In this document: positions 365 through 24,025 of the stretch, piece after piece
Position numbering within the stretch: the stretch's first letter is position 1
Layout: each line of letters starts with the position of its first letter
Assembly (NCBI GenBank): GCA_018822365.1
Contig: JAHJKL010000059.1
Location: 1-49,406, forward strand
DNA: 49,406 bases
DNA from: Candidatus Margulisiibacteriota bacterium
Lineage (GTDB): Bacteria > Margulisbacteria > WOR-1 > O2-12-FULL-45-9 > XYB2-FULL-48-7
Reading direction: 5' to 3'
Notes under the pieces: generated by a model
Told to the model about the DNA's origin: nothing
What the model saw: only the letters and a program-made list of their open reading frames with translations
Database searches by the model: none
Position numbers and translations under genes: made by a program

Positions 365-2173
365 CTACCTTAAAAACAAGCAAAGACATTCCTCGCTTTT
401 TCGCCCCAGATATTCTCTGTAATACCGCTGCGCTTTGATTGTTTGATCTTCGTTTTCACCCTTTAAAGATATTTCGTTAAGCAAGGTAACAAGCGATTTT
501 TCTGATCCTGCCTTCAATTTGTTCAAGGGGGAGTTTATAAGAGGATCATAACTAATTATATCATGAAAATGGCTGATCTTAATGACCGGCAAGCCCATCC
601 CCATTGCCTCTAAAGCTACTTTACTTCCATCATAAAGTACGACAAATGATCTTTCAATGTCCTGTTGAAGAGGGCGGGATGAAATCTCGACATTATTTAT
701 AGCTAGAAGATTAAAAGTCAAATTATCAATATAATTACTTAAGGGAGCCGCCGGGTGAGGTCTGATTATCAATTGAAAATCACTCTCTTTTAAAGAAGAA
801 ATCACAAATTCCAGCATTTCTTTAGCCCTTGGATAACAGCCAAGCACAACCAGTATATTTTTGCTCGTTAATTTTGGCTTGATCTCAAAACCGGCTTTAA
901 CCGCGGAAAGAGAACAGCCCACCTGCAATATTGCCGGTGGATAATGCCCATCTTTTACTAAATAATCTCTGGTAATACTCCCCACAGTAACAATCCGGTC
1001 CGGCAATGGAATAAAATTCTTCTCATTAGCGCTCAAAAGAACACTCGTCAGCGCCTGATAAAGCACGCTATGCTGGTACCCAATAATATAAGGCTTTTTT
1101 GTTGCTCTTAATCCAAGGGTCAGCATTTTTTCCCATGGATAATTCTCGTGGCTAAAAATACAGGTCGCAAGCTTATAATGCCGACCGATGCCCTTACCGA
1201 GGTAATAATAAATCATATTATGCAGATCCTGTCCGCGGGCGCGCTCATAAGCAAGGCAAGAATTCAGAAGCAAAGAGATATCGATCCCTTGAAAATAAAC
1301 AGGTCCCGTAACCTTGCATGGCTTGAGCCGGCAAGAAAAAAAGGCCAAGAGCGGATCGATCAAACGAAGCAACATCTCCTGCGGTAGCGGCTTGCCATCC
1401 GTCTTCATAATCTTTACCGCTTCGATAAAATCACCAAGAACACCGACAAACATATCAACGTTCAGTTGTTTTTTTCTTAAATCGTCATGAAGCAAGCCGA
1501 AGTAAAGATCTTTATAAGGAGAAGAAGACAATGAAGCAGAGGTCGCCCAACTCCTGATCAAATATCGCCCCCCTTCCTTCATTTCTGGCCCAAACACTTT
1601 CTTCCGGCGCAAAAACAAACGACAAACAACGATCCGGTAATAATGTTTCAGCAGGAACAACCCTGAAGAAAGAGTCAGCCTGGACAGAAAAAGCAATGAA
1701 GCAAACAACCAGCCCTTAAAACCGGACATCAGCACTGGCCGCCCATTATTTTCGCAATAACGCCTCAACTGCCCGGCGACGCGAGGTAAATCTGTGACCA
1801 CTACGACAAACTCCGCACCCGAAGCCTTTATTCTATCAGCAAGACAAGCCATCTTATAAAGCTCGTCGAAAAAACTCGAGGAGACATAATCTTTCGAAGA
1901 GAGACTGTAGCTCCACCATTTAATGCCTTGATATTTGGAATTAACTTCTCCGATCAAATCAATATACTCCGCCAAGAAGCGCTCCGTCTCTGCCAGAGGA
2001 CGGTCACAAACATTCACCGCTTTAACCCGGCAGATATCCAAAATAGCCGCGGCTTGCTCTCTGTCAGTTGCTAAGACAAGAAGCGCAGTGCCAAACAACT
2101 CCTTTTTGCTTAAAAACAGCTGCTGAGCGCGATGCGCATCCGGCACAATAAATATTTTTCTAATCTGACCCAT
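365..2173 (-). CDS. Large GT-B-like surface carbohydrate biosynthesis protein (602 aa)
   Basis: Seen: a long protein with a hydrophobic stretch at about 154-188 and a C-terminal half resembling capsule/CDP-glycerol-type GT-B transferases. Motifs are ENYPWE at 343-348, GYQHS at 365-369, RPHP at 471-474 and DGSKVALEA at 515-523. The last two resemble the acceptor-phosphate and donor-binding segments of such enzymes. Inference: a glycosyl- or polyol-phosphate transferase acting at the membrane. The ENYPWE signature recalls a family of uncharacterised O-antigen cluster proteins described in Leptospira, but I could not confirm that. It overlaps the upstream gene by 14 bases and is followed 11 bases later by the radical SAM gene. 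It is the third of three consecutive large proteins of similar layout. Confidence 0.7.
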   Translation of the reverse strand: MGQIRKIFIVPDAHRAQQLFLSKKELFGTALLVLATDREQAAAILDICRVKAVNVCDRPLAETERFLAEYIDLIGEVNSKYQGIKWWSYSLSSKDYVSSSFFDELYKMACLADRIKASGAEFVVVVTDLPRVAGQLRRYCENNGRPVLMSGFKGWLFASLLFLSRLTLSSGLFLLKHYYRIVVCRLFLRRKKVFGPEMKEGGRYLIRSWATSASLSSSPYKDLYFGLLHDDLRKKQLNVDMFVGVLGDFIEAVKIMKTDGKPLPQEMLLRLIDPLLAFFSCRLKPCKVTGPVYFQGIDISLLLNSCLAYERARGQDLHNMIYYYLGKGIGRHYKLATCIFSHENYPWEKMLTLGLRATKKPYIIGYQHSVLYQALTSVLLSANEKNFIPLPDRIVTVGSITRDYLVKDGHYPPAILQVGCSLSAVKAGFEIKPKLTSKNILVVLGCYPRAKEMLEFVISSLKESDFQLIIRPHPAAPLSNYIDNLTFNLLAINNVEISSRPLQQDIERSFVVLYDGSKVALEAMGMGLPVIKISHFHDIISYDPLINSPLNKLKAGSEKSLVTLLNEISLKGENEDQTIKAQRYYREYLGRKSEECLCLFLR

Positions 2174-4175
2174 TGATTATCTTATCGCGCCCCCAAGTTT
2201 TCCTGAATTTTTCGTCGGCAAACGCCAAGGCGGCCTCTCGGTCCTGTCCTTGATTTAAATTGTCTAGCAAACACTCCAAATAGCCGGCCATTCTTTTCGC
2301 CGCTTTTCCGTCCCGAAACTGATCTTTTTGCGGCAAAGTCGCAATTATTTCCTGTCTGCCGACCCGGCTGTCTTTGTTCTGCCTCATTTCGCTTATTGCC
2401 GCCAGCAGACCCGGCAAGGAATCAAAAATGATGGTTCCCCTCCCCCAATCATATTCCTCATATGTGTATATTTTTTCCAGGTCCAAATAAACAACCCGCG
2501 AACCGGCCAAAAAGCACTCTAAAGCAGTTGTCCCTCCTAATAGGAGGGCGACAGTAAGATCGGCCGCTAAAGATGGTTCCGCCGGAAAAGTGTCGGTCAT
2601 ATATTCGCCGTCAATAAAGATGCATCTTCCGGTCGCTTTTGCTTTTTCGACTAATTTCCCAATTTCAGGCAACCTTTTTAAGAATGTTTTTGGACGTTTT
2701 GGGCTACAGATCAGCCCCAGTGTTTTATCGGCGATCACGGCTTCAAGTAAATTTTTGTATATCTCCATGCTCCTAGCGTTGGGGAGAACACTCATCTGGT
2801 CGTCGCCGGAATTTTCATCGAAGTAACAAATAATGAATTCAGCCCCATTATCAACCAGTTGCCGTCTTATGCCTGCCGCCCGTTCTTTAACAGCTATAAA
2901 CGCATAATCAGTTAGGAAACCATTATAGATATAACGCCCGCAAATCGATCCAGCGTCGGTCAGTCGCGGCAAATAATAAGGCCCAAATATAAACATCACG
3001 TCGGCCCCCGAAGACAATCCGTTGTTTGAAATCGGCCAATTCGATATCTGATAACTAACGTTTATTCCGCCGTTGTCCCTAAGCGCTAACTGGCGGGCAA
3101 GCCTGAAAGGGTCAAAATCAATAAAATCAATATTTACTTTGATGTTGTTACTCCTAAAAAAATCATAAAAACGCGCATATTGACCGACAAACCGCATTGT
3201 CCAGTGCAAATAGTCCAAAGATCTCAAGGCAAATGAGTATCTAATAAATAAAAAGATGCTCTTTACTAACATCTTTAAACTTTTCAAAAAAACGGCAAAC
3301 GATGGGCGGTAAATCATGACATCACAGGTAGCAGTCGCTTTAGGCGTCATCGCGACAGCAGAAATGCCATTTTCCCGTAACTGATCCGACATTTTTTTGT
3401 TGACCGGGACATCTTCTCTTTCAAAATACATAATTGTTTGCGCTCTGTACTTATCCAACATCAATAACCAGGGAAAATCACAACGCTTATTAAGATCAAA
3501 AGAAAACCCTTTTAACGTGTAGGGATTGCTCAATTTGACGGTCTGTTTAGCAGCAACTTTTTGCCGCCAATTATTTGGAGAGAACAGGGGCAAAAGCATC
3601 ATTTTAACGATTAAATACAGGTTTGCAGCCAGCATTATTAATTGTCCGCACAATGTCCTTAACGAATATCTGGTCAACACCGTAATACCGAAGCGATCAA
3701 GAGCATAAGCGGCTAACTCATTTGTAAACGGCGACCAAGGGACAACATATTCAATTTGCCCCCGCCCCTTGAGTTCACTCTCCTGTTCAATCGCTCTAAG
3801 ATATATAGTGGGATCATGCACCATATTGTACGAGTGTTTCCTGAAATAAAGCCTGACCTTATCTGTACTGCCTAGCATCTCTCCTAAACGGCCAATAAAT
3901 TCATTCTTCTCAATAACATTGCGCTCAATCCGATCAACAAGCTCGATCAAATCCTGGCTATAAATAATCGGAAAAATCGCCTCTTCCTCATCTCCTCGCA
4001 GATCACGAAGACAAAAATTATAACGAAAAATTATTCGCCCCAGATCAAACATTTTAATGACTTTTTTAGCCAAAGGGGTCGCGTTAAAATAATAGATCTT
4101 ATCAAACTTCTTGCCAGGAAGTAAAAACTCTATCAATAACAACAAATCAAGACGATAATAATACCTGGACTTCAT
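2160..4175 (-). CDS. Large GT-B-like protein of unknown specificity (671 aa)
   Basis: I do not recognise a named family. The N-terminal half is mixed alpha/beta with a membrane-seeking segment near 180-200 and another near 305-320. The C-terminal third has LLGGTTALECFLAG, the G-T-x-x-L/E pattern near the donor site of GT-B enzymes, followed by a strand ending VVYLDLE. NWPIS and FGPYYLP sit where the two Rossmann lobes would meet. There is no signal peptide. It overlaps both neighbours (4 bases with the upstream gene, 14 with the downstream gene), so translation is probably coupled. The likely role is a glycosyltransferase or glycan-backbone polymerase at the inner membrane; specificity is unknown. 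Confidence 0.6.
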   Translation of the reverse strand: MKSRYYYRLDLLLLIEFLLPGKKFDKIYYFNATPLAKKVIKMFDLGRIIFRYNFCLRDLRGDEEEAIFPIIYSQDLIELVDRIERNVIEKNEFIGRLGEMLGSTDKVRLYFRKHSYNMVHDPTIYLRAIEQESELKGRGQIEYVVPWSPFTNELAAYALDRFGITVLTRYSLRTLCGQLIMLAANLYLIVKMMLLPLFSPNNWRQKVAAKQTVKLSNPYTLKGFSFDLNKRCDFPWLLMLDKYRAQTIMYFEREDVPVNKKMSDQLRENGISAVAMTPKATATCDVMIYRPSFAVFLKSLKMLVKSIFLFIRYSFALRSLDYLHWTMRFVGQYARFYDFFRSNNIKVNIDFIDFDPFRLARQLALRDNGGINVSYQISNWPISNNGLSSGADVMFIFGPYYLPRLTDAGSICGRYIYNGFLTDYAFIAVKERAAGIRRQLVDNGAEFIICYFDENSGDDQMSVLPNARSMEIYKNLLEAVIADKTLGLICSPKRPKTFLKRLPEIGKLVEKAKATGRCIFIDGEYMTDTFPAEPSLAADLTVALLLGGTTALECFLAGSRVVYLDLEKIYTYEEYDWGRGTIIFDSLPGLLAAISEMRQNKDSRVGRQEIIATLPQKDQFRDGKAAKRMAGYLECLLDNLNQGQDREAALAFADEKFRKTWGRDKIINGSD

Positions 4176-6175
4176 CCTTGCCCAACCTTTTCAGATACAA
4201 ATTTTGAAAGATTTCCTGAATAATCTTCAGCAAACAAATATTTTTTAAATAGAGGTTTTGGAACATTTTGGGACAAAATGTTGTCCAATAGCCATTGCAA
4301 ACCATCTTTCAGGTGCTTTGCGTCATTTACATAATAAACCGAGCCTATCTTCCCGGCAGTTCCGGACGTCAACTTCTCTGCCTCAAGATGCTGGTATCGT
4401 CCCTCTCTGTCAAACAATAAAACCGGGATAAAATTTTGCAAGGCCTCCTCGATAACGGTCGACGAAAAATTGACCAATAGGTCCGCCAGCGTCAGCATTT
4501 CGTAAAATGGCGGGTCGGAAGAAAGGATGGTCAAATTATTTGTTTTTGGAAGCAAGGATCTTAACGTCCCGAAAGTGGACGATCTCCCCCAGCCGGCATG
4601 CAATCGAATAACCAAGTGATACCCTTCGATTTCATTGATCGCGCTTATCAGATCGGCCGCGGATGCCAGGAACTCATCGAACGTTTGAAAGGTATGAAAT
4701 CTCATCCCATTTCTTAAACGAACGCTTTCGGGGTACAAGATTATTTTTTTATTCCATATATTTTCATCCAAATATTTCTTTTTTAGCGCCGCCTTCTGAT
4801 CTACATTGATCTTCGCGAAGACCAACGGTCCGGTTTTAATGATCCGTTTTTCTTTGACAAGGTGATGTTTTCTGTAATACTCGTAATGCTCGAACTCGGT
4901 TGGAGTTTGGATCGCCGCGCAATTATAAACATCGCTTAAAACCAAGGTTTTTCCTAAATGATAATTTTCGATGCTTTCAAGTTCGTTCTTTGGCGCGACT
5001 ATCGGACCATGCGCGATCATCAGCGCCGGAATATCACGAATCAAACAAAGCTCGGCGAGCATAAAATAGGTGAACCTCGCAAACGGGGAAATCATCAGCT
5101 TGATGTTCAAGGTATCAAAACAGCGTTTCATTATTACGGACTTATAATACAAATTAACCAGATAAGGCTTTAAATCTATAACAATTTTCTCACCCATGAT
5201 ATCCATGAAATTCACGCCATTAACCGTAAAATGTCCATGCCAATCGCCATTGAGCTTCGCTATAAGGTCGTCCACCGACCGCGCTAAACGCTGGCCGTTG
5301 CCGGAGCTAAGCCGCCTGGAAACGATATCCGGCTTTATCGGCAAGATTAAATTTAAGCCACTGATCCTCGAGATGTTCAATAACCTTAATACGCAGGTAA
5401 GCGTAATGGCGGCGATCTTCTTGAAACCGATCTCCTCGGAAACCACCATCCAGTGCACGTCGGAATAATTTCTTTTTAGATCGTTCGCTATTTTCCCGAC
5501 ATTGTACCCGGAGGAAGCAAGCAGGACCACTTTTTTTCTTTTCAAGGAAAAGCACAATAAACGCCGGTATCCCTCCGCCGCCAACCCAAGAAAGAACGCG
5601 CTGATAAAGCCGCCAAACGACCTCTTTTTATCGCTTGAGCTGGATCGCATCGGGATCTTTTTGAATTTCAGGTCGTGTTTGCTTGAGAATATTTTAGCGA
5701 TCGCCCCGACATACCGCTCGCCAGCCTGGATCTGAGGCGTACTGTTCTCTTGAATATCATTCCGGGGGGAGCAGGCGTATATAGACGCGATATTGTGTTT
5801 GTTTGTTAATTCCACAAGCATTTCGTTATACATCAAAAAATGATGCATATAAAACCGCAGGAAAAACAGAAAAGTGTCGTTGTAGCTTTCTTTTATTTCC
5901 GTGCCATCCTCAAGACTTATGTTCTTCGCCAGGAATTGATACCATTTTTCCGATTGTAGCAAAGCCCTGGAATGCGCCTGATTTGACAAATATGGCAAAG
6001 TATTTTCAAAAGGGATATTGCAGCTTTTAAAAAACAGTTGGACCTGCGCTTGCAGGGCAATGATCCGGAAATCCATCGGGGAAAGCGCTTGCTCCCGGCA
6101 ATATTCTAAAAAAGCTTCGGCTTCATCGGTAAATTCCAAAAGAACGATCTTTTCTCCGGTATTTTCTTTTTCCAT
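4172..6175 (-). CDS. Large GT-B-like protein (667 aa)
   Basis: The C-terminal half has the hallmarks of a capsule-type GT-B transferase: AHGP at 388-391, YPES at 481-484, RLHAG at 524-528 and FSSTVIEEAL at 570-579. These correspond to the acceptor-side loop, the start of the second Rossmann lobe and the donor-phosphate helix. The N-terminal 200 residues look like a separate domain, joined through a hydrophobic helix at about 189-212. The gene begins 1 base after the hydroxyacid dehydrogenase stop and overlaps the next gene by ATGA. Inferred role: transfer of an activated sugar onto the growing glycan. It shares its general layout with the two following genes but is not obviously a recent duplicate of either. 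Confidence 0.65.
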   Translation of the reverse strand: MEKENTGEKIVLLEFTDEAEAFLEYCREQALSPMDFRIIALQAQVQLFFKSCNIPFENTLPYLSNQAHSRALLQSEKWYQFLAKNISLEDGTEIKESYNDTFLFFLRFYMHHFLMYNEMLVELTNKHNIASIYACSPRNDIQENSTPQIQAGERYVGAIAKIFSSKHDLKFKKIPMRSSSSDKKRSFGGFISAFFLGLAAEGYRRLLCFSLKRKKVVLLASSGYNVGKIANDLKRNYSDVHWMVVSEEIGFKKIAAITLTCVLRLLNISRISGLNLILPIKPDIVSRRLSSGNGQRLARSVDDLIAKLNGDWHGHFTVNGVNFMDIMGEKIVIDLKPYLVNLYYKSVIMKRCFDTLNIKLMISPFARFTYFMLAELCLIRDIPALMIAHGPIVAPKNELESIENYHLGKTLVLSDVYNCAAIQTPTEFEHYEYYRKHHLVKEKRIIKTGPLVFAKINVDQKAALKKKYLDENIWNKKIILYPESVRLRNGMRFHTFQTFDEFLASAADLISAINEIEGYHLVIRLHAGWGRSSTFGTLRSLLPKTNNLTILSSDPPFYEMLTLADLLVNFSSTVIEEALQNFIPVLLFDREGRYQHLEAEKLTSGTAGKIGSVYYVNDAKHLKDGLQWLLDNILSQNVPKPLFKKYLFAEDYSGNLSKFVSEKVGQG

Positions 6176-6176
6176 C

Positions 6177-7109
6177 CTAAAGTCCGAGTCCCTTCAATAA
6201 ATTTTTAACGGCGTCTACTTCCATCTGGACCCTCGCCTCTTTCGCATAACTCCCCATGTGAGGGGTCAAGACAATATTGTCCAATTCACATAAAGCGCCT
6301 GAATAAGGTTCGGCCGCAAAAGCATCGAACCCCGCCCCGGCAAGCCGCCCATTTTGCAGACAATCATATAAGGCGGCTTCGTCCACCAGTTTCCCCCGGG
6401 AAACATTTATTAGAACCGTTCCGGGCTTCATCGCTTCAAGCTGCTTGCGGCCCAGCAAATGATGGTTTTCTTTCGTATAAGGGATATGCAACGAAATTAT
6501 TTCAGACGTTGCGATCAATTCCTCAATGGTCTGGACTTGTTTGATCCCTTGATTTCCGGAAACATAGGGATCATAAATATACAGCTGGCAATGGAAGGGG
6601 GTCAGTAATTCCGCCAGCCTCCGGCCGATCCTGCCGAAACCAATTATCCCGACCTTCTTTTCCTTAAGCAGACGGCCCATCGTTTTTTTCCAGGCCCCCC
6701 GCCTCAAGTTACGGTCGGAATAACTAATTAAACGAAGAACGTCCAGGATCAGCCCGAGCGCCAACTCCGCCACCGCCTCCGTCGGGCCATTAGGCGTATT
6801 ATAAACTTGGATCCCCTTCTTTTCGGCGGCCGCGACATCAACGCTGTCCAACCCTACCCCCAGCCGCGAGATCACTTTCAAAAAACCGACCTGCTCCATT
6901 ACTTTTTCCGTCAATGGTTCCGTCCCCGCTATCAGGCCGGCCTTATCAGCCAAATAACCGGCAATCTCTGCCTCCGTCAATTGCCTGCCAGTCGGGTTCA
7001 ATTCGTAATCAATTCCATGATTTTTAAGCAAATCCAACGGCTTGGGATCGTCTTTCCCGAAAGTTGAAGTCGAAATAAAGATTTTTTTCATCCGATCACC
7101 AGTTAACAT
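6177..7109 (-). CDS. D-2-hydroxyacid dehydrogenase (phosphoglycerate dehydrogenase-like)
   Basis: NAD-dependent D-isomer 2-hydroxyacid dehydrogenase, 310 aa, without the C-terminal ACT domain of full-length SerA. Seen: substrate-domain start KKIFIST, Rossmann motif GFGRIG at 158-163, and catalytic Arg in NVSRG (R238), Glu in FAAEP (E267) and His in TPHMG (H284). In this family the enzyme interconverts a 2-oxoacid and a D-2-hydroxyacid. Its neighbours (VOC protein, CMP-ulosonate synthetase-cupin, AroB homologue) suggest a dedicated step in block (c) rather than serine synthesis. ATG 7109 has an AAGGA Shine-Dalgarno; ATG 7091, giving the family-typical MKKI start, follows GGTGAT and is equally credible. 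The gene overlaps the VOC gene by 14 bases. Confidence 0.88.
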   Translation of the reverse strand: MLTGDRMKKIFISTSTFGKDDPKPLDLLKNHGIDYELNPTGRQLTEAEIAGYLADKAGLIAGTEPLTEKVMEQVGFLKVISRLGVGLDSVDVAAAEKKGIQVYNTPNGPTEAVAELALGLILDVLRLISYSDRNLRRGAWKKTMGRLLKEKKVGIIGFGRIGRRLAELLTPFHCQLYIYDPYVSGNQGIKQVQTIEELIATSEIISLHIPYTKENHHLLGRKQLEAMKPGTVLINVSRGKLVDEAALYDCLQNGRLAGAGFDAFAAEPYSGALCELDNIVLTPHMGSYAKEARVQMEVDAVKNLLKGLGL

Positions 7110-7476
7110 ATTCGTCCTTTTTCAGGTAATCCTTCATATGCCAAACAACCCCTTCCTGATCGGTGAAAAAATAACAATCGCCGTCAGGATTTTTCACGGT
7201 CCGGTCAATTTGTAATTTCAAACCATCCTCAATAAACGACCTGGCATTCTCGGTCCTCAAGCAAGGCTGACAAAACCCGACGGCACACGATCGCTCGCCG
7301 GATTGCTTCTTCTTAACCTCGATGTTCAAACCATCGTTACTGATAAACATCGCCGTGCCGGAGCCGCTTATCGTTTTATATCTTCCGCCTTGAAATATTC
7401 TGGTCAGGAATTCGCAATAAGCCGGGATATCCGAGACATGCACTTCAATATGGTCAAAAAATACTGGTTTGCTCAT
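7096..7476 (-). CDS. VOC-superfamily protein (glyoxalase/bleomycin-resistance fold)
   Basis: A 126-residue single-module vicinal-oxygen-chelate protein. The first strand FFDHIEVHVSD carries His9, the usual first metal ligand; LNIEV (about 50) and the terminal VVWHMKDY segment supply the other typical ligand positions. VOC enzymes use a divalent metal to enolise or epimerise oxygenated substrates, or to cleave C-C or C-O bonds. The gene starts 1 base after the CMP-synthetase-cupin stop and runs into the hydroxyacid dehydrogenase gene, so it belongs to the same pathway block. A lyase, epimerase or isomerase acting on an alpha-oxo or hydroxy acid sugar is plausible; the exact reaction cannot be read from the sequence. 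Confidence 0.75.
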   Translation of the reverse strand: MSKPVFFDHIEVHVSDIPAYCEFLTRIFQGGRYKTISGSGTAMFISNDGLNIEVKKKQSGERSCAVGFCQPCLRTENARSFIEDGLKLQIDRTVKNPDGDCYFFTDQEGVVWHMKDYLKKDEYVNW

Positions 7477-8619
7477 TTACTTCTCCTCTCTATATACATG
7501 CGGGACCAGGTCGCGGCTGACCGCCAGACGGACCGCCGGCCGGTCGCCGATCGCGGTGATCTTGTGCCATTTTTTCTTTTCGATGAAGACCAGATCGCCC
7601 TTGCCGACTTCGTATTCTTTGCCTTCAATCTCCCACTTCCATTGTCCCTCGACTATATACCACCATTCGTTCCAGTCGGGATGGAAATGGAGCCGGTTCC
7701 CTTCGCCGGGAAGCTGGGAAATCAGCGTCGCGGAATTGTTCTCGGTATTAACAACCCGGCGACACCATGACCTTGAGTTGTCCATGCCGGCAATTATCGC
7801 TTCAAGGTTGACCAGCGGGAGGTTCTCATGTTCAAAATCATTATTTTCAACTCCGTCTTTTTTAAGTATCCTGGGGACCTCGACTTCGGCGACCAGTTTA
7901 TCTTTTGATTTTTCTTCATAATATTTCTTTTCGAAATATTCATGGTTTTTGCGGTAAAGCAGGGCAACTTCCGCCAGCGCAAAATCCTCTTCATGGTCAA
8001 TATCGATCGTCGACAGCCCTTTCAAAACATAATACCCGGTCTTGCCGTCCGCACCATGATAAGCAAAGCCGTACTTTTTCAGGTGGTCTTTGAAGCTCTG
8101 GTAGGTCCAAGCCATAAGGACCGTGGCGTAAGACTGGACCGGGACCATATCCTGCGAAGAGATATGCGGCTCCAGCCTTTTAAAATTGACCGGCTGATCT
8201 TTATAAATACAGGCGATCTGCTGATTCTCGACCGAAACCAGAGTATCGAATTTCCCGTCCGCCATTTGTTTTACAAAAGCGCTGATCTCTTCAGGCGTTA
8301 TCAAGGGAGAGGTCGGAAGAAGCTGGACCAGGATCTCCCCATTGACCTTGCCGATGAAATCGGCTACAAAATCATCGTTATTGGCCTGATCAGAGGCAAA
8401 CTTGTCCGGCCTTTTATAGAACTTGGCTCCGTATTCGGCGGCAATCCCGGCAAACACTTCCGCTTCGGAATTGACATAAACCTCGTCAAAAACCCCGGAG
8501 GCAACGGCCGCTTCTATTATATAAGCGATCAAAGGCTTGCCGTCGATTAGCCGCAGGTTCTTCTTGGGCACCCTCTTGCTCCCCAACCTCGCCGGTATCA
8601 TCCCGATAGTTTTTGCCAT
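7477..8619 (-). CDS. Acylneuraminate cytidylyltransferase-like domain fused to a cupin
   Basis: Residues 1 to about 225 are a NeuA/KdsB-type CMP-sugar synthetase: MIPARLGSKRVPKKN (7-21) is the CTP-binding loop, LLPTSPL at 100-106 is typical, and STIDIDHEEDF (203-213) is the metal-site aspartate segment. Residues about 290-375 form a cupin with metal ligands H311, H313, E318 and H352, and a charged linker joins the two. CMP-synthetases activate 3-deoxy-ulosonic acids with CTP. The cupin may isomerise, epimerise or sense the sugar, or tune the enzyme. The gene follows the AroB-like gene by 3 bases and has a GGAGGAAGG ribosome site. It is distinct from the SpsF-type enzyme at 23202-24023, implying a second activated ulosonate or analogue. 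The fusion is unusual to me. Confidence 0.88.
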   Translation of the reverse strand: MAKTIGMIPARLGSKRVPKKNLRLIDGKPLIAYIIEAAVASGVFDEVYVNSEAEVFAGIAAEYGAKFYKRPDKFASDQANNDDFVADFIGKVNGEILVQLLPTSPLITPEEISAFVKQMADGKFDTLVSVENQQIACIYKDQPVNFKRLEPHISSQDMVPVQSYATVLMAWTYQSFKDHLKKYGFAYHGADGKTGYYVLKGLSTIDIDHEEDFALAEVALLYRKNHEYFEKKYYEEKSKDKLVAEVEVPRILKKDGVENNDFEHENLPLVNLEAIIAGMDNSRSWCRRVVNTENNSATLISQLPGEGNRLHFHPDWNEWWYIVEGQWKWEIEGKEYEVGKGDLVFIEKKKWHKITAIGDRPAVRLAVSRDLVPHVYREEK

Positions 8620-8622
8620 TTT

Positions 8623-9708
8623 TCACCTTCCTCCTGCCCGATAGCCCGCGATAAACTCCGCGTACGTTTTTCGGAATTCGTCTTCCTTCAGGTCGTCGTA
8701 TTTAAACTGCTGGCCAATGTCTTTCGAAAGGATCATGGTCAGGTCGTGGCCAACTCTTTTTTTATCCTTTTTAAGATACTTAATCATGGCCTCGGCCCCG
8801 ATCGTCTTAAAGTCGAACTTCGGGTAATACTGCCTAAAAATCGCCTCGAATTCGTCATATTTCCCTTTGGTCATTATTCCCCGTTTGAGAGAGACCAGGT
8901 TGGCAAACCCCATCCCAACGATCACCGCTTCCCCATGGCTGACCCCAAAGTTGCTGGCCGACTCGAGCGCGTGCCCGAAACAATGGCCGTAATTCAGGAG
9001 GTTCCTCCGCCCCGAATCAAACTCGTCGCCTTCAAAATAGGATCGCTTGATCTCCAGCGTCGATCTGATGACCGGCTCAAAATATTCATTGTCCCTCAAA
9101 TCACCGGCGGAAAGATATTTTTTTAACAATGCGTAGCCCTGCTGGTTGGACATCAGATGAAATTTTATGATCTCCCCCAACCCGCTGTTAAAATAAGCGT
9201 CGGCCAAGGTCCGGCATAACGAACGGTCGATAAAGATCTTATCTGGGGGATAAAATGTCCCGATCAGATTTTTGCTGTCATCGAAGTTGATCGAAGTCTT
9301 CGAACCGATACAGCTGTCCGCTTGCGCCAGAAGCGTCGTCGGGAAAAAAATCCATTTTAACCCCCGATACATAGTGGACGCGATAAACCCGCTGATATCC
9401 TGGAGGATCCCCCCGCCAAACGTTACCAGAATATCATTGCGGGTGAAATGGGCGTCGATCAACGCCCGATAGTAGTCGGCCAGCTTCAAATATGACTTGT
9501 TTTGCTCCAACGCGGGAATGACCAATCGGTAAGCCTCGCCCGTAAAAGCATTGACCTTTTTTTGATGCGCCCGGTAAAACCCTTCATCTATAAAATAGAA
9601 CAAACGGTCGTATTTCTGGCCGGAAAAAACTTGATCCTTATTATCCAGCAGATCGGAAACGATCTCCGCCGAGTAATCCTTAACTTTGGACTTAATCTCC
9701 ATCTTCAT
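8623..9708 (-). CDS. 3-Dehydroquinate synthase family protein (AroB-like sugar phosphate cyclase)
   Basis: 361 aa, close to normal AroB length. NAD-binding TFGGGILQDISGF, PTTLLAQADS, KTSIN and DSKNLIGTF are present. Metal ligands are kept: Glu in GLGEIIK, the first His in NYGHCFGHALE and the His in SHGEAV. Positions that distinguish dehydroquinate synthase from C7-cyclitol cyclases are also kept (RNLLN, the second His of GHCFGH, KKDKK near the end). The chemistry should therefore be dehydroquinate-synthase-like on a 3-deoxy-ulosonate 7-phosphate or close analogue. Location in a glycan operon argues for a dedicated precursor route, although a relocated housekeeping aroB is possible. Its start overlaps the SDR stop by ATGA. 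Confidence 0.85.
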   Translation of the reverse strand: MKMEIKSKVKDYSAEIVSDLLDNKDQVFSGQKYDRLFYFIDEGFYRAHQKKVNAFTGEAYRLVIPALEQNKSYLKLADYYRALIDAHFTRNDILVTFGGGILQDISGFIASTMYRGLKWIFFPTTLLAQADSCIGSKTSINFDDSKNLIGTFYPPDKIFIDRSLCRTLADAYFNSGLGEIIKFHLMSNQQGYALLKKYLSAGDLRDNEYFEPVIRSTLEIKRSYFEGDEFDSGRRNLLNYGHCFGHALESASNFGVSHGEAVIVGMGFANLVSLKRGIMTKGKYDEFEAIFRQYYPKFDFKTIGAEAMIKYLKKDKKRVGHDLTMILSKDIGQQFKYDDLKEDEFRKTYAEFIAGYRAGGR

Positions 9709-10433
9709 TTTATCGTCACGCCTCCATCGACAACGACCGTTTGGCCGGTAATATAAGTATTAAGGTCGGAGCAAAGAAAAACCGCGAAATTAGCGATCTC
9801 TTCCGGACTAGCAAACCGACCAAAAGGAATATTGCGAATAAACTGTTCTTTTTGCTCGGCGGTCAGGACCATTTCCACCATTTCAGTCTGGGTATGCCCG
9901 GGACAAATGGCATTCACCAGCACATTGAATGGAGCAAGAGCCAGCGCGCTTGCCCGAGTAAGCCCGATCAGTCCGGACTTGCTTGCGCTATAAGCAGTGG
10001 AGCCGGGCTTTGAAACAATCCCAGCCATGGAACTGACATTAACGATCTTCCCCGATCTTTGTTTTTTCATTTTATTCGAAGCAACCTTCATAATCCTGGC
10101 CGGCGCATATAAATTGACTTTCAACACTTTATCAAAGTTCCCATCGGTCAGATCATAGACTGCTTCAGGAATATGTATCCCGGCGTTATTGACCAGCACG
10201 TCCAACCGTTCTTCTTGTTCCAGCTTTTCAAGAAAACCCGCCATCCCTTCCACGTCCAAAAAATCAACCTTGATATGCTCGGCCAGGGGGTACCCCTTTA
10301 TCCAGGCGGGGGGCTCCCCCCTGCTGGTGACCGTTACCCGGCAATCAAGCTCCAGCAGTCCCTTCGCGATCGCTTCCCCGATACCGCGGTCCCCACCGGT
10401 CACCAGCGCGTTTTTCCCTCTAAAATCGATCAT
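9705..10433 (-). CDS. Short-chain dehydrogenase/reductase (SDR)
   Basis: Classical SDR of 242 aa: cofactor motif TGGDRGIG (about 12-19), NNAG (83-86), catalytic Ser in NVSSMAG, and YSASK with the catalytic Tyr and Lys. It ends with the family-typical GQTVVVDGG segment. It would oxidise or reduce a sugar hydroxyl or keto group with NAD(P)H. It overlaps the neighbouring SDR and the AroB-like gene by 4 bases each. Its closest relative in the window is the adjacent SDR (shared SASK-x-GLIGLTRA and FLCSDLNTY-x-TGQ), so the pair looks like a tandem duplication that has diverged, perhaps for successive redox steps. Confidence 0.9.
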   Translation of the reverse strand: MIDFRGKNALVTGGDRGIGEAIAKGLLELDCRVTVTSRGEPPAWIKGYPLAEHIKVDFLDVEGMAGFLEKLEQEERLDVLVNNAGIHIPEAVYDLTDGNFDKVLKVNLYAPARIMKVASNKMKKQRSGKIVNVSSMAGIVSKPGSTAYSASKSGLIGLTRASALALAPFNVLVNAICPGHTQTEMVEMVLTAEQKEQFIRNIPFGRFASPEEIANFAVFLCSDLNTYITGQTVVVDGGVTIK

Positions 10434-11122
10434 TGGATGGTAAACCCCCCGTCCACAACCAGCACCTGGCCGGTCATGTAAGTATTGAGATCAGAACATA
10501 AGAAAGCCGCCGCTTTCGCAATCTCCTCCACTTCCGCGAACCTTCCCGTCGGCACCTCTTTGCATAACAAATCGATATCGTTTTTTGACAGGATCGATGC
10601 GGTTAGGTCGGTTTTGGTAAAACCAGGGCACAGCGCGTTAACCAGTATGCCGTGTGGAGCTAAATCAAGCGCCGCCGCCCTGGTCAGCCCGATCAGACCG
10701 GTCTTGCTCGCCGAATAAGAAGCGCGTTTTTCCTTGGAAACGATTCCGAAAATCGAGCTTAGATTTAATATTTTTCCTTTTATATTATTCTTGATCATCC
10801 GGCTTGAGACTTCTTTTATCAATAACGCGCAGCCGGTAAGATTAACTTTAACAATCCTTTCAAAATTGCCGATATTCATTTCATTGATCGGCTCGATCAG
10901 GTTGATCCCCGCATTGTTTATCAGGATATCAGCATCATCCGGCATATTTTCTATAAAAGCAACAATGCTCTTGTCATTCGCCAGGTCTAATTGAGCCGTG
11001 CCTGTAGCCACCACTTCTCCGCCCAAATCGGACAATAAGTCGGCAATCCCTTTTCCGATCCCCCTGGTCCCACCGGTTACGATCGCCTTTTTCCCTTTAA
11101 AATTCAATTTATTTTTGTGCAT
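10430..11122 (-). CDS. Short-chain dehydrogenase/reductase (SDR), paralogue of the next gene
   Basis: Classical SDR: TGGTRGIGKG cofactor motif, NNAG, LNLSSIFG with the catalytic Ser, YSASK with Tyr and Lys, and the terminal GQVLVVDGG. The loop after the first strand is shorter than in its paralogue (GTAQLDL follows VVATG directly), typical of small 3-oxoacyl-reductase-like SDRs used on sugars. ATG 11122 is preferred because GGTGG lies 9 bases upstream; an in-frame ATG at 11131 has no usable spacing. The gene overlaps the Gfo/Idh gene by 14 bases and the second SDR by ATGA. Substrate unknown; context suggests a sugar or cyclitol intermediate of block (c). Confidence 0.88.
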   Translation of the reverse strand: MHKNKLNFKGKKAIVTGGTRGIGKGIADLLSDLGGEVVATGTAQLDLANDKSIVAFIENMPDDADILINNAGINLIEPINEMNIGNFERIVKVNLTGCALLIKEVSSRMIKNNIKGKILNLSSIFGIVSKEKRASYSASKTGLIGLTRAAALDLAPHGILVNALCPGFTKTDLTASILSKNDIDLLCKEVPTGRFAEVEEIAKAAAFLCSDLNTYMTGQVLVVDGGFTIQ

Positions 11123-12092
11123 AAACCGCATCCACCAATTTCATCAGTTTGAGCGCGTCTTGCGTATTCGCTACCGGGACTTCTTTGTCGTTCTCAATCG
11201 AATCCAAAAATATCTTTACTTCCTTTTCCCAGGAAGAATTTATTCTATAGACAAACTTCTCTTCTTCGGTCCAGGTGGCGGCTGGCGGCGCGGTCCGGTT
11301 CTCCGCGATCGTTAATTGTTCTTCCCCATAAGACCCGGAAGAGGTTATAAGACCATTGACTGTTAAATATCCTTTTTGCAAAAACATTTCAAGAGAAAAC
11401 AGGTGTCGCCACTGGGTCATGGTTGAGTGAAGCGAAGCGACCTGCCCCTTATGGTTTTTGAACAACGCAAAAACGTTGTCTTCGATATCCGCTTTCCAAT
11501 AAAGATTAGAAACAAAAGCTTTCACTTCTTGAAAATCACCGCACATCATCAAGAATAGATCGAGCATATGGATCCCCTGGTCAAGAAAGATGCCACCGCC
11601 AGATAAATTCTTTTTTGATCTCCAGTTATCCTGAAAATTGGGCGGAACACTTTTTCCGTAGCGACCCCTCATCCAAAGCAACTTGCCATATTTTCCGGAA
11701 TCAATCAATTCCTTGGATCGTATGATACTTTCATGATGCCGGTGATTAAATCCGAACATCAATTTCAACTTCGGATGTTTTTTCTCTTCTTTGATCATCT
11801 CCATTACTTCCGCCGCGCTGATTCCCGGAGGCTTTTCACAAAAAACATGCTTGCCCCTACGCAACGATTCGATTACGTATTTGGCAATTAAATAATTGGG
11901 AACACAGATGAATACACCGCCAATCTTGTCATCATCAAGTATTTCCCGGTAATCTTCCACGACCTCAACCCCATTAAGCCGGATTTGACCGCAAGGGTCG
12001 TAAACCTTTGCGACCGAATGACCGGGGATACAATCAATCACCTCATGACGGATCTTTCCCATCACGCCGTAACCCAGCAAGCCAAATTTCAT
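11109..12092 (-). CDS. Gfo/Idh/MocA-family oxidoreductase
   Basis: NAD(P)-dependent sugar or inositol dehydrogenase, 327 aa from ATG 12092. This start is chosen because AAGGAG sits 6 bases upstream; the longer frame to 12131 lies inside the preceding gene. Seen: N-terminal Rossmann motif GLLGYGVMG, CEKPPG (the conserved E-K-P with the catalytic Lys), GGGIFLDQGIHMLDL with the G-x-x-D-x-G-x-H signature, and a C-terminal beta-sheet domain. Members oxidise or reduce a ring hydroxyl of sugars, nucleotide sugars or cyclitols. It sits between the SIS isomerase and the two SDRs, so block (c) has at least four redox enzymes. Confidence 0.9.
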   Translation of the reverse strand: MKFGLLGYGVMGKIRHEVIDCIPGHSVAKVYDPCGQIRLNGVEVVEDYREILDDDKIGGVFICVPNYLIAKYVIESLRRGKHVFCEKPPGISAAEVMEMIKEEKKHPKLKLMFGFNHRHHESIIRSKELIDSGKYGKLLWMRGRYGKSVPPNFQDNWRSKKNLSGGGIFLDQGIHMLDLFLMMCGDFQEVKAFVSNLYWKADIEDNVFALFKNHKGQVASLHSTMTQWRHLFSLEMFLQKGYLTVNGLITSSGSYGEEQLTIAENRTAPPAATWTEEEKFVYRINSSWEKEVKIFLDSIENDKEVPVANTQDALKLMKLVDAVYAQK

Positions 12093-12102
12093 TTTTTTCT
12101 CC

Positions 12103-12723
12103 TTATCTGAACTTGTAGACCGCCGCGCCAATGATCTGATCGTTAATATAATGGATCAACAAATTATGGATTATTTCCACATAACCGTAAGCCTTGCTGT
12201 TCAGGTAAATATTGATATTGCCTTTTTTTCTCAAAGGATTATTTTTTTCAAAAGCCGAAAAAGTGATCACTTCGCACCCGATTTTCCTGGCCGCTGCAAC
12301 AGCATTTAAAATATTCTTGGAGGTCCCTCCGCTGCTAATCGCAATCAACACATCTCCTTTGTCAGCAAAGGCTTCGATCCCTTTGCTGTACACTTTGTCG
12401 TAGCCATAATCATTTGCGAATGTCGTTAATTGGGGCGTGCCGCTTATCGCCATCGCCCGGAGCCCGGCATTCTTGGTCAGGTCGATCGCCATGTGCTCAG
12501 CGATTGCCGAGGAACCACCGTTCCCGACCAGGATTATTTTTTTCCCGCGTTTTTTCGTGCTTTTGATCATTTCTATGGCCGCTAAAAGATCCCTGATATT
12601 TTCCTTATCTTCCAAATACTCCTTTAATGATTCGTTAAACCCCTCAAAATATTGTCTAGTATCCAATTCGATCACTCCTTTTATTTGATTTAAACAAACC
12701 CCTTTAGCTACGCTTTCGATCAT
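12103..12723 (-). CDS. SIS-domain sugar-phosphate isomerase (GmhA-like)
   Basis: A single SIS domain of 206 aa. GNGGSSAIAEHMA near 67-79 is the phosphate-binding loop seen in sedoheptulose-7-phosphate isomerases (GmhA/DiaA group), and SSGGTSKNIL is the second signature. The family performs aldose-ketose isomerisation of C7 or amino-sugar phosphates. In this operon it could supply a heptose phosphate to block (c). ATG 12723 directly follows the methyltransferase stop and has AAGGGG close upstream. A TTG at about 12663 with GGAG upstream would give a shorter protein of more typical length; the choice is open. No other heptose-pathway gene (kinase, phosphatase, HddC) is visible nearby. Confidence 0.85.
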   Translation of the reverse strand: MIESVAKGVCLNQIKGVIELDTRQYFEGFNESLKEYLEDKENIRDLLAAIEMIKSTKKRGKKIILVGNGGSSAIAEHMAIDLTKNAGLRAMAISGTPQLTTFANDYGYDKVYSKGIEAFADKGDVLIAISSGGTSKNILNAVAAARKIGCEVITFSAFEKNNPLRKKGNINIYLNSKAYGYVEIIHNLLIHYINDQIIGAAVYKFR

Positions 12724-13527
12724 CTAGCCCCTTGTCTCATCCTTTACAAAGAGGCGAATGGTATTGTTGGCAAGAGCATCCTCTTGCCTATAAGGAACGG
12801 GAAACCGTTCGCAGACCCCGGTGAATATTTTGCTTGCTACCATTTTCAAACCGACTCTCTCGAACAATTTTTGGAAATCTCGCGGATAGGCCAGGAAACT
12901 TCCTTCATTTTCAAGCGTCAGCACGAACTTGCGACTAACTCTCGCCATTTCCCTGAATACATAGTTATATCTGGGATGGATATTAACCAGTACGGAATGG
13001 CAAAAAACCAGATCGAATTGTCGTGACGGAAATTTGCGCAGTTCCAGCGGGGCATTCCCTACGATTAATTTACTCTGTTGCGCCATATCAGGAAAAGCTA
13101 CCCGGGCTAGTTTGACTGCTTCTTCGCCGATCTCAATGCCGGTAAGGTCTCTATATCCAAGCTTGTATAAATAATTCAATGATCGTCCGACATTACAGCC
13201 GATTTCCAGGATCCGGCTGTTTTTATCAAGGTAGGGAAGTACTTCTTTAAACAATTCAATCGTGGAATTATTTTCTTCAATATAAGTTTCCGGATGGTCG
13301 TTACTCCCTTTTGTGCCTTGTTTCTGCCAGCGGGAACAACTTTCAAAAGCGGGAGAGGCCAGAGGTGGCCCTATGCCGTTAGTTGCCAAGAAAGAAGCCA
13401 TTCTGAAATATTGATACTTCAAATAACTATTATTTCGCATAACCTCAATTAACTTCTTGCGAAAAACACACAACCCTTCATACATACTGTAAACCCCCGC
13501 TAATTTAAGCATCCTTTTTGTAACCAT
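12724..13527 (-). CDS. Class I SAM-dependent methyltransferase
   Basis: A 267-residue Rossmann methyltransferase. Motif I is ILEIGCNVGRSL (about 105-116), followed by LTGIEIGEEAV at the end of beta2 and FDLVFCHSVLVNI for motif IV. An 80-residue helical N-terminal extension precedes the domain. It transfers a methyl group from S-adenosylmethionine; in glycan clusters such enzymes usually O-methylate a sugar or cap a chain. A strong GAGAGGAG site precedes ATG 13527, 22 bases after the flippase stop, and the SIS gene follows with no gap. The acceptor cannot be assigned. Confidence 0.85.
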   Translation of the reverse strand: MVTKRMLKLAGVYSMYEGLCVFRKKLIEVMRNNSYLKYQYFRMASFLATNGIGPPLASPAFESCSRWQKQGTKGSNDHPETYIEENNSTIELFKEVLPYLDKNSRILEIGCNVGRSLNYLYKLGYRDLTGIEIGEEAVKLARVAFPDMAQQSKLIVGNAPLELRKFPSRQFDLVFCHSVLVNIHPRYNYVFREMARVSRKFVLTLENEGSFLAYPRDFQKLFERVGLKMVASKIFTGVCERFPVPYRQEDALANNTIRLFVKDETRG

Positions 13528-16577: not shown

Positions 16578-17045
16578 TTATAGTTTTCCTTTATATATAA
16601 GCAGGGAGATCCGTCCGTTTCCCCGGCTTTCGTAATCAAAAACGTGTACAAAACCGGCCCGGATAAAAGTTTTTAAAGAAACGGGATTATCCTGCTTAAC
16701 CCTGGCCAAATATATGGGAAACCGCCTCATTGACAACGCCTTCTTTATAAGGACCGGGCCATAGCCCCGGCCTCTTTTTTCGGGTACAACAAGCACCCCA
16801 AATTCCCCAATCCCCTTGCCCAAGCGGTCCAACCTTACATGCCCGATAACTTCCCCGTTGCTATCTTCCGCCATAAAAAGAAGACGGTCGCGGCTGGTCA
16901 GGGAGGAGGCCAACCATTTCAGATGACCCTTATATTTTACCGGAGCTGATTGAAAATTAACCTTTCGCGTTTCCGGGTCATTCCGCCAGCGGAACAAATC
17001 GGCGGCGTCGGACATTTTCACTTTTCTCAATTTTATTCTATCCAT
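16578..17045 (-). CDS. pseH: GNAT N-acetyltransferase, PseH candidate
   Basis: 155 aa from ATG 17045, which has GAGG 9 bases upstream and lies just past the pseI stop. LFRWRNDPETR near the N-terminus, GHLKWL and the acetyl-CoA loop VPEKRGRGYGPVL are shared with PseH/SpsD, which N-acetylate the C4 amine of UDP-4-amino-4,6-dideoxy-L-AltNAc using acetyl-CoA. Its position next to pseI supports that role. The ARVKQDNPVSLKTFIRAGF helix is standard for GNATs. It could instead acylate a different amino sugar, but it is the protein in the window that best matches this step. Confidence 0.8.
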   Translation of the reverse strand: MDRIKLRKVKMSDAADLFRWRNDPETRKVNFQSAPVKYKGHLKWLASSLTSRDRLLFMAEDSNGEVIGHVRLDRLGKGIGEFGVLVVPEKRGRGYGPVLIKKALSMRRFPIYLARVKQDNPVSLKTFIRAGFVHVFDYESRGNGRISLLIYKGKL

Positions 17046-17059
17046 TTTTATCGTCCTCT

Positions 17060-18127
17060 TTATTCCAAATCTTCCCATTTCACCAAGTCATAGGCATTCA
17101 TTGCTCTCCGCGCCTTCTTTCCAATTATTTTATTTATATTCTTCGGTTCGATCCCCGTACCGGGCCGGATAAATCCTAGGGATTCGCTTTTAATAATGTC
17201 CCCCTTTTTAATGTCTTCCAATACGGTAATGCTTCTTCTTATCAGTTCCCGGTTTTTTAGCTCTTTCCCGCTTACTTCCCTGTTTCGGCTCCCCAAGGCT
17301 TTTTCAATAACTCGTATTTTCAAAACCATTTCCTTCATCTCTTCCGGTAGCATGGAAAAATGATGCTCGGCGGGCTTGGGATCATTTCGATCAAGGGTAA
17401 AATGTTTTTCAATGATACAGGCGCCTAGACCTATAGCGACCAGATCAAGGTCGTAACCCAGAGCATGGTTTGAAAAGCCAACAGGCCGTGAAAAATGGTC
17501 CCTTAACATTTTAATGTTTAAAAGATTGGCCTCTTCAGGCTTTAAAGGATAATTCGATACGCAATGGAGTAAGGCTAGCGGGGCTTTTTTAAACGATTGA
17601 ACAGCCTCTTCGATCTCTTCCAGCCGGGACATGCCGGTTGAAAGAATGACCGGCAAGCCAAGCTTGTCAATTTCCCGCAAAAACGGAAGATTATTCAGGT
17701 CCATGGAGGCGATTTTTATGGCGTCAACTTTTTTTTCGGCCAGGAACAAGGCCGCTTCCATACTGGCCGGAGTGGATATAAAGGCCAGGCCCAGGCTCCT
17801 TGTGTAACCGATTAATTCATCATACCATTCATAAGGCATTTCCAGTGTTTCGACAAACTGGTACCAGTAATCGAATTTATCGGATACATTCCAGCCGGAG
17901 TAAGCATTCGCGGGAACGTTTGGATTGACTATATCCAATGCCTTAAAAGTTTGGAACTTAACCGCGTCCGCACCCGTTGCGAAAGAAGCTTTGATCATTT
18001 TTTTGGCCGTTTCAAGGTTCGCCCCATGATTATTTCCTATTTCAGAAATAATATAGCAAGGCGCTCCGGTCCCGATCTCTTTACGGCCGATTTTTATTTT
18101 TATGTCTTTCTCGTTTTCTATGTTCAT
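17060..18127 (-). CDS. pseI: Pseudaminic acid synthase (NeuB family)
   Basis: 355 aa, the usual length for NeuB/PseI/LegI enzymes. The TIM barrel opens with ISEIGNNHG, followed by DAVKFQTF, STPAS, KIAS, STGMS and IEKHFTLDRN-x-P-x-P-E-H, covering the PEP- and metal-binding residues. The C-terminal 60 residues are an antifreeze/SAF domain (SITVLEDIKKGD...IRPGTGI) that closes the partner subunit's active site. It condenses PEP with the 6-deoxy-2,4-diacetamido hexose released by PseG. The PseI assignment over LegI or NeuB rests on pseB, pseC and pseG in the same operon. It overlaps WbqC by ATGA. Confidence 0.9.
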   Translation of the reverse strand: MNIENEKDIKIKIGRKEIGTGAPCYIISEIGNNHGANLETAKKMIKASFATGADAVKFQTFKALDIVNPNVPANAYSGWNVSDKFDYWYQFVETLEMPYEWYDELIGYTRSLGLAFISTPASMEAALFLAEKKVDAIKIASMDLNNLPFLREIDKLGLPVILSTGMSRLEEIEEAVQSFKKAPLALLHCVSNYPLKPEEANLLNIKMLRDHFSRPVGFSNHALGYDLDLVAIGLGACIIEKHFTLDRNDPKPAEHHFSMLPEEMKEMVLKIRVIEKALGSRNREVSGKELKNRELIRRSITVLEDIKKGDIIKSESLGFIRPGTGIEPKNINKIIGKKARRAMNAYDLVKWEDLE

Positions 18128-18861
18128 ACGATACTTTTTAACAATTCCCCTTTAGTTATGTTCCCCGATTGAACTATTCGCAAACTATCTTCCCCGTGGT
18201 TAAAGAGCAAATCTATAATTGAGAGGAACGGGCTGAACTCTTTCCCGTGAAGCTGGTCGTAAACCGGATGCTGGTAATCCTGGAAATAAACGTTTATCCC
18301 GGCTTTTTTAAACGCCTCCAGGTCCGCGTAGTTCTTTCCCTGGATCCCAAAGATGTATAAATCCGCTCCCATTTTTTGGCACATTTCGAGGACCAGTTCC
18401 GATTTGCTGGAAGTAAAGCCATATTCGGAAAGCTTAAAAAACTTGACTTCAATGCCCAGGAATTTCATGATGTTTTTTAACAAATGTTCGTTTAAATCGG
18501 ATAATTTATCCCATTTTTTATTATAGGTATCTTCAAAAAAGCCGATATATTTATCGAAATATTTGGCTTTTTTATGCGTAAGATATATGGATTTGAAATG
18601 TTTTCTTGCCCACGGCAACTCGTTGTTAATCATGACGTCCTTCAGCTTCAATTGGTAATGGTCCTTGTTTAACACCGGAACGGTCAACCAGATATCTCCC
18701 TGGTTAGTTTTGATTTTATTCCGATTGTTCCAATCTTTGGTCTGGTATTGAACGTCGTCGAAGTAAACGAATATGTCCGCCAGGGAAATCTTATGGAATA
18801 AACCCAACCATGGCAAATATACCGGTTGATGCGCGGTAAGTATGATCTTTTCTTTATTCAT
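18124..18861 (-). CDS. WbqC-like family protein
   Basis: A 245-residue WbqC-family protein with the N-terminal signature HQPVYLPWLG, then FDDVQYQTKDWNNRN and conserved tryptophans. The family is common in O-antigen and nonulosonic acid clusters, where it is thought to help modify amino sugars, but I know of no settled reaction. No signal peptide or membrane span is visible, so it acts in the cytoplasm. It overlaps the E1 beta gene by 8 bases and pseI by 4. Its position between the 2-oxoacid-dehydrogenase module and pseI suggests a role in choosing or delivering the acyl or aminoacyl substituent. Confidence 0.85.
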   Translation of the reverse strand: MNKEKIILTAHQPVYLPWLGLFHKISLADIFVYFDDVQYQTKDWNNRNKIKTNQGDIWLTVPVLNKDHYQLKLKDVMINNELPWARKHFKSIYLTHKKAKYFDKYIGFFEDTYNKKWDKLSDLNEHLLKNIMKFLGIEVKFFKLSEYGFTSSKSELVLEMCQKMGADLYIFGIQGKNYADLEAFKKAGINVYFQDYQHPVYDQLHGKEFSPFLSIIDLLFNHGEDSLRIVQSGNITKGELLKSIV

Positions 18862-21918: not shown

Positions 21919-21928
21919 CTCCCCCTCC

Positions 21929-24023: not shown

Positions 24024-24025
24024 TC

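Follow-up and report, generated by a model that had tools for sequence, protein, structure and literature searches.

A possible oxidative, AroB-dependent route to a CMP-activated acidic C7 unit in an eight-gene block from a Margulisiibacteriota bacterium

The surface acids that are activated with cytidine monophosphate (CMP) are, in every case known to us, made by condensation of a sugar with phosphoenolpyruvate (PEP). Maf-dependent flagellin glycosylation is reported to use sialic-acid-like sugars (PMC4065374). Another related system is the ebo operon, a mobile cluster of several phyla with an uncharacterised sugar phosphate cyclase (EboD), whose predicted substrate is sedoheptulose 7-phosphate (S7P) (PMC5133447). 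Here we describe a block of eight genes at positions 6177-12723, on the minus strand of contig JAHJKL010000059.1 from Candidatus Margulisiibacteriota bacterium (assembly GCA_018822365.1; the 49,406 nucleotides analysed are called the window), that encodes an AroB-like protein, related to 3-dehydroquinate synthase (DHQS), and a CMP-sugar-acid synthetase fused to a cupin. We put it at slightly below an even chance that this block encodes a dedicated pathway, mobile by horizontal transfer, that leads to an acidic C7 unit activated with CMP, with substrates, order of steps and product inferred as set out below. That the unit is a carbocyclic analogue of an ulosonic acid, formed by two oxidations, an AroB-type cyclisation and CMP activation, and used for polysaccharides and flagella, is a decidedly more tentative proposal; we know of no described CMP-activated carbocycle of such a class.

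The eight genes were confirmed at the coordinates of the original prediction, which had described them as tightly packed; all lie on the minus strand, and neighbouring genes overlap or lie no more than about 10 bases apart. If the Gfo/Idh gene starts at a TTG it overlaps the SIS gene, and if it starts at the ATG at 12092 a gap of about 10 bases is left. Pfam and NCBIfam gave strong family matches for seven of the eight genes, which are the following:

12103..12723, minus strand: SIS-domain sugar phosphate isomerase, phosphoheptose-isomerase-like, under the GmhA cut-off
11109..12131, minus strand: Gfo/Idh/MocA oxidoreductase, with the EKP lysine and the D...H catalytic motif intact
10430..11131, minus strand: SDR oxidoreductase with an intact S-Y-K motif, of the kind that neighbours AroB in almost every locus
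9705..10433, minus strand: second SDR, found only where a class III aminotransferase is missing
8623..9708, minus strand: AroB-like sugar phosphate cyclase/phospholyase of the TIGR04425 clade
7477..8619, minus strand: CMP-sugar-acid synthetase fused to a cupin (CTP_transf_3 and a metal-type cupin)
7096..7476, minus strand: small protein of 126 residues, possibly VOC/glyoxalase-like (sub-threshold match), accessory
6177..7109, minus strand: D-2-hydroxyacid dehydrogenase, phosphoglycerate-dehydrogenase-like, with R, E and H intact

The conserved core consists of the SIS, Gfo/Idh, SDR, AroB-like, dehydrogenase and CMP-synthetase-cupin genes. The families assigned in the original prediction stood for seven genes; the VOC assignment was weak, with no Pfam match at 0.001 and a best score of 14.1 bits for PF00903 (Glyoxalase; cut-off 20.6, E 0.065), and this gene lies outside the conserved set, with no homologue found in any related locus. 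The CMP-synthetase part (residues 1 to about 240) is PseF/NeuA-like and reaches 89 bits with CTP_transf_3 (PF02348; gathering score 22.6) and 99.2 bits with the PseF equivalog TIGR03584, under its cut-off of 205.7; the cupin part (residues about 300 to 370) retains the H-x-H...E...H metal motif. Likewise, the SIS protein scores 96 bits with the GmhA equivalog TIGR00441, under the cut-off of 209. Its signature is H..D / E..H versus H..E / Q..H in GmhA (Asp/Glu/His replaces Glu65/Gln172/His180), and it is common to the block and to the sister loci without AroB that are described below. The Gfo/Idh protein of the window is 52-57% identical to those of loci L040/L034, 66% to that of L048 and 52% to that of L064, which has no AroB.

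The AroB-like protein of the block is not the housekeeping enzyme. A second AroB of the same genome (assembly size 1.68 Mb), which the original prediction had proposed to look for, is encoded on contig 48 and passes the AroB cut-off with 388 bits, whereas the block protein scores 280.7 bits with the TIGR01357 equivalog, under the cut-off of 305. Another GmhA-type gene is also present in this genome; therefore, the SIS and AroB genes of the block are extra copies. The best family for the block protein is TIGR04425, with 394.8 bits, about 5 under the cut-off of 400, which genes of the same clade (L144-L147) exceed. In a tree of 39 proteins the TIGR04425-type clade, with 100/98 support, falls outside DHQS and the S7P cyclases, and the other AroB of the genome pairs with the AroB of the same genus; unrelated proteins from rows L063-L081 were kept out of this tree and of the residue comparison. 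The block protein lies in or just beside TIGR04425, a named hypothetical family with no assigned substrate.

The active-site residues, numbered as in A. nidulans DHQS, bear on the substrate of this protein. In the A. nidulans structure the substrate carboxylate is held by K250 and R264. Throughout the TIGR04425 clade, in both of the architectures that carry it (types I and II, see below), R130, K152, N162, E194, K250, R264, N268, H271, H275, H287 and K356 are all retained, and in the window protein all the DHQS substrate, NAD and metal residues that were checked are intact. Only K197 varies among the checked residues, being His in L043, L045, L055 and L056. An annotated 2-deoxy-scyllo-inosose synthase (DOIS) and three annotated S7P cyclases (L128-L131) have several of K250, R264, N268, H275 and K356 altered. 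The retention of the carboxylate-binding residues suggests that the direct substrate should carry a carboxylate, as a 2-ulosonate 7-phosphate does; hence the protein probably acts on a 2-keto-acid sugar 7-phosphate and not on S7P directly. The original prediction of a route from a C7 sugar phosphate to a CMP-activated acid is borne out in that the gene set points to it, while the residues disfavour S7P as the direct substrate. The 2-ulosonate 7-phosphate could be supplied by the dehydrogenase in type I and by an aldolase-like protein in type II.

The same gene set, sought in other genomes at the suggestion of the original prediction, is clustered and not scattered in relatives. A genome collection was scanned with the CMP-synthetase/cupin as query, and the 16 loci with both domains belong to Ignavibacteriota, Pseudomonadota (Alteromonas, SAR86, Pelagibacteraceae and others), Neomarinimicrobiota, Margulisiibacteriota, Planctomycetota, Omnitrophota, KSB1 and Bacteroidota. 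When 399 Alteromonadaceae were searched later, two further loci were found, both with the uninterrupted order SIS, Gfo/Idh, SDR, AroB, dehydrogenase, SDR and CMP-synthetase-cupin; overall, CMP-cupin loci occur in about ten widely separated bacterial phyla. Among the 19 loci (the window and 18 others), an AroB-like gene is present in 17, a Gfo/Idh gene in 17, the AroB-adjacent SDR in 16, the dehydrogenase in 15 and the SIS gene in 14, several of the missing genes corresponding to contig ends; from these counts, the clustering is not due to chance. Within the phylum, 10 of 74 genomes, that of the window included, have a TIGR04425-like gene clearly over the aroB background. This gene is part of the same six-gene set in the Margulisiibacteriota loci L034/L046 and L040/L050, and in the remaining seven loci it accompanies an SDR in the absence of a CMP-synthetase.

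Within the same genus the set was not found (genome G064), and its distribution in two families is patchy (3/399 and 1/300 genomes). The two other Margulisiibacteriota AroB-like proteins branch at different places in the AroB tree. The patchy spread, the absence in the same genus and the scattered tree positions therefore indicate that the set was likely transferred horizontally as a unit. No TIGR04425-type set was found in a plasmid collection, where each of the listed AroB matches is either an ordinary aroB or a different cyclase; the AroB gene of a Thermovirga plasmid lies within a shikimate cluster.

The second SDR and a class III aminotransferase exclude each other in the uncut AroB-containing loci (0/8 vs 6/7, Fisher p 0.0014, with relatedness ignored). 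This is expected if both act on one ketone of a shared intermediate, and AroB chemistry yields a ketone. As a separate observation, a DUF4862 gene, possibly an alternative tailoring enzyme, directly follows the block in L043 (11146-12141), L045, L047 and L049, where the aminotransferase is missing.

Four architectures can be distinguished among the loci. Type I is the present set, with the AroB-like gene and the CMP-synthetase-cupin. Type II (L033, L035-L039 and L041; seven genomes of the phylum) combines a TIGR04425-type AroB with an SDR and, mostly, with an HpcH/HpaI-like aldolase; its neighbours include genes that resemble those for cytidine diphosphate (CDP)-dideoxyhexoses and a thiamine diphosphate enzyme that resembles YerE, and its product may be a branched or carbocyclic CDP-sugar. 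Type III has the SIS, Gfo/Idh, D-2-hydroxyacid dehydrogenase and CMP-synthetase genes, an inositol-monophosphatase (IMPase)-like phosphatase in place of AroB and, often, an SMP-30 lactonase. It occurs in Rhodobacteraceae (L063, L065, L067, L071 and L123), with Leisingera and Ruegeria among its carriers, and in Rhizobiales, with variants in Aminicenantes and Eisenbergiella, and it is present in part in L064, L074, L075, L076 and L078. Whole-genome searches of the type III genomes revealed no TIGR04425-type gene, and the identity of their Gfo/Idh proteins to the window protein reaches 52%. It is possible that type III represents an apparently undescribed oxidative route to CMP-hept-2-ulosonate. 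Since the phosphatase of type III alternates with the AroB of type I, the two look like alternative ways of losing the phosphate, and nothing hints more strongly than this alternation that the phosphate is lost at the AroB-like step. Finally, type IV (L060-L062, L066 and L077) contains a Gfo/Idh gene, an unrelated Ldh_2-type 2-hydroxyacid dehydrogenase and a CMP-synthetase; these loci also carry a GT2-cytidylyltransferase fusion. Types I, III and IV thus share an aldose oxidoreductase, a 2-hydroxyacid dehydrogenase and a CMP-acid synthetase, from which we infer that the 2-keto acid is made by oxidation.

According to the pathway that we propose, the SIS protein would form an aldoheptose 7-phosphate from a heptulose 7-phosphate by isomerisation, the Gfo/Idh protein would oxidise C1 of the aldoheptose phosphate to a lactone or aldonate, and the D-2-hydroxyacid dehydrogenase would oxidise C2 of the phospho-aldonate, to give a hept-2-ulosonate 7-phosphate, an analogue of 3-deoxy-D-arabino-heptulosonate 7-phosphate with a 3-hydroxyl. 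The fact that the Gfo/Idh and 2-hydroxyacid dehydrogenase genes travel with the AroB-like gene was counted in favour of this oxidative route. The AroB-like enzyme would then carry out a transient oxidation at C5, eliminate the phosphate and, in what is probably a carbocyclization, let C7 close on C2 to form a carbocyclic keto acid that resembles dehydroquinate. Two SDRs, the AroB-adjacent one and the second one, would adjust the ring oxygens, the latter being replaced in other loci by the aminotransferase, and the cytidylyltransferase with its cupin partner would form the CMP derivative. Nearby transferases would add the activated unit to a surface polysaccharide or, judging from gene position in Alteromonadaceae, to flagella.

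The surroundings of the block are in line with such a destination: in the window and in most loci the neighbouring genes resemble polysaccharide genes. The ends of the block are not the ends of the transcription unit, as a methyltransferase gene abuts one side and a GT-B-like gene the other; the block forms the conserved central part of a longer series of genes for surface polysaccharides. The flanking genes are:

12724..13527, minus strand: methyltransferase, abutting the SIS gene, not conserved with the block
4172..6175, minus strand: protein with a GT-B fold, a candidate for transfer of the CMP-activated unit; its gene is separated from the dehydrogenase gene by one base
2160..4175, minus strand: large protein without a Pfam match, candidate transferase; L046, L049 and L052 have homologues close to the block

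In L046 the block is likewise followed by a homologue of the GT-B-like gene (44%); weaker homologues accompany CMP-synthetases in L059-L061. Its structure model has a generic GT-B fold that gives no pointer to the type of donor, and the model of the 2160..4175 product has a predicted local distance difference test score (pLDDT) of 33. Related proteins of one cluster are encoded near the block in L045 and L054, and that of L054 matches GT29, a sialyltransferase family. In three Alteromonadaceae (L044, L151 and L152) the full block is inside the flagellar cluster, the usual site of flagellin glycosylation islands, beside genes for flagellin, FleQ/FlrA or FliF; L151 is also near relatives of PseG, NeuB and PseF and near LuxE/LuxC-type genes. 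The window itself contains pseudaminic acid genes at 16578-27080 and 37810-38802, among them PseB, PseC and PseG, which pass their cut-offs, a NeuB/PseI-type synthase and a second cytidylyltransferase; the locus thus appears to produce two different acids activated with CMP. It was considered whether the NeuB of the window (17060-18127) feeds the CMP-synthetase of the block; this was dropped because the PseB, PseC and PseG genes explain its presence. Judged by the sequence alone, genes for the E1 beta and E1 alpha subunits of a 2-oxoacid dehydrogenase lie between 18854 and 21918 beside what looks like a lipoyl domain fused to a hexapeptide-repeat (NeuD/PglD-like) acyltransferase; direct passage of an acyl group from a 2-oxoacid to a sugar might occur there.

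Several points weigh against the proposed pathway. A quinate-like carbocycle has no anomeric carbon, and with CMP on its tertiary hydroxyl it would be a poor glycosyl donor, although its ring, carboxylate and hydroxyl mimic what a NeuA/PseF-like enzyme recognises. The SIS gene is missing from the cluster in L047, L049 and L055, which are not cut there; the block of the window has no lactonase for the opening of the lactone; and the SIS sequence differs from GmhA at the catalytic Glu, which leaves a heptose substrate less than certain. Moreover, L048 and L054, both metagenome-assembled genomes, have the cupin-fused CMP-synthetase, together with a class III aminotransferase, and no TIGR04425-type gene was found in either. 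A normal anomeric CMP donor, fitting the NeuA/PseF-like synthetase, would be obtained if the oxidative route were the same and the AroB-like enzyme acted only as a phospholyase. The resulting keto-7-deoxy ulosonate, with no ring closure, would be finished by the cupin, as an RmlC-like epimerase, and by the SDR or aminotransferase, to a linear 7-deoxy hept-2-ulosonic acid that carries CMP at its anomeric carbon, as an activated nonulosonic acid does. We consider this unlikely, yet a serious contender: it suits the intact metal motif of the cupin, the position beside flagellin genes and what the phosphatase loci are presumed to make. On the other hand, every checked DHQS residue is retained, all the characterised AroB homologues that we know of cyclise, and the released enol is expected to close spontaneously. 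According to a review, there is evidence that DHQS may not need to catalyse its last two steps (PMC7144000), which cuts both ways, as cyclisation would then not be a fixed task of the enzyme.

The remaining explanations differ in what they assign to the AroB-like gene. Two pathways might share the cluster, AroB and the SDR yielding a free quinate-like cyclitol substituent and the SIS, Gfo/Idh, dehydrogenase and CMP-synthetase proteins yielding CMP-hept-2-ulosonate. In agreement with this, AroB and SDR genes occur with no CMP-synthetase in the seven type II loci, most of which have the aldolase-like gene, and the CMP set occurs without AroB elsewhere; nevertheless, AroB is interleaved with the other genes in 17 of the 19 CMP-cupin loci, which lack the phosphatase found in the sister loci, and this division of labour seems improbable to us. 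The presence of a GmhA-like SIS gene in the same block would also suit an enzyme of the EEVS kind that acts on S7P, one of the options of the original prediction, with the acid group added later. It is a very remote prospect, given that the S7P cyclases alter several of K250, R264, N268, H275 and K356 while the TIGR04425 clade retains them all and stands apart from those cyclases in the tree. Finally, a mere duplicate of the shikimate-pathway aroB in a mixed polysaccharide locus would belong to the same protein family and have the same residues; however, the separate clade, the housekeeping copy elsewhere in the genome and the conservation of the six genes across phyla make it scarcely credible.

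If the proposed pathway is correct, it has implications beyond this locus. In type I and in two sister sets an aldose would apparently be oxidised at both C1 and C2 to give the 2-keto acid; in type I the phosphate would be removed by a shikimate-type cyclase. Nucleotide-activated acids would in this way be made by a new logic. TIGR04425 would gain a testable substrate, and the set is present in a culturable Alteromonas (A. arenosi), inside its flagellar cluster. The parts belong to known families; their combination and the oxidative route that it implies are new to us. The open-access papers searched yielded none on TIGR04425 or on this gene combination; the original prediction did not recognise the set as a known pathway, and no described match was found.

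Compared with known systems, the block protein shares with DHQS (TIGR01357) its fold family and all the checked substrate, NAD and metal residues; it differs in being under the cut-off, in a separate clade and in a CMP-sugar cluster, and it is not the housekeeping copy. TIGR04425, named "AroB-related putative sugar phosphate phospholyase (cyclizing)", is its best family and relatives of the same architecture pass the cut-off, of which the block protein itself is 5 bits short. The S7P cyclases and DOIS are likewise AroB homologues, diverted to secondary metabolites; these enzymes alter the carboxylate-binding residues that the block clade retains. The CMP-nonulosonate pathways (Neu, Leg and Pse) have a homologous cytidylyltransferase (NeuA/PseF) and the same polysaccharide and flagellar context, whereas the block has no NeuB-type PEP-condensing synthase and its 2-keto acid seemingly comes from oxidation. 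Like the block, the ebo operon is mobile and occurs in several phyla, and its sugar phosphate cyclase is uncharacterised, but its partners are a UbiA-type prenyltransferase and a phosphodiesterase, and it has no CMP activation.

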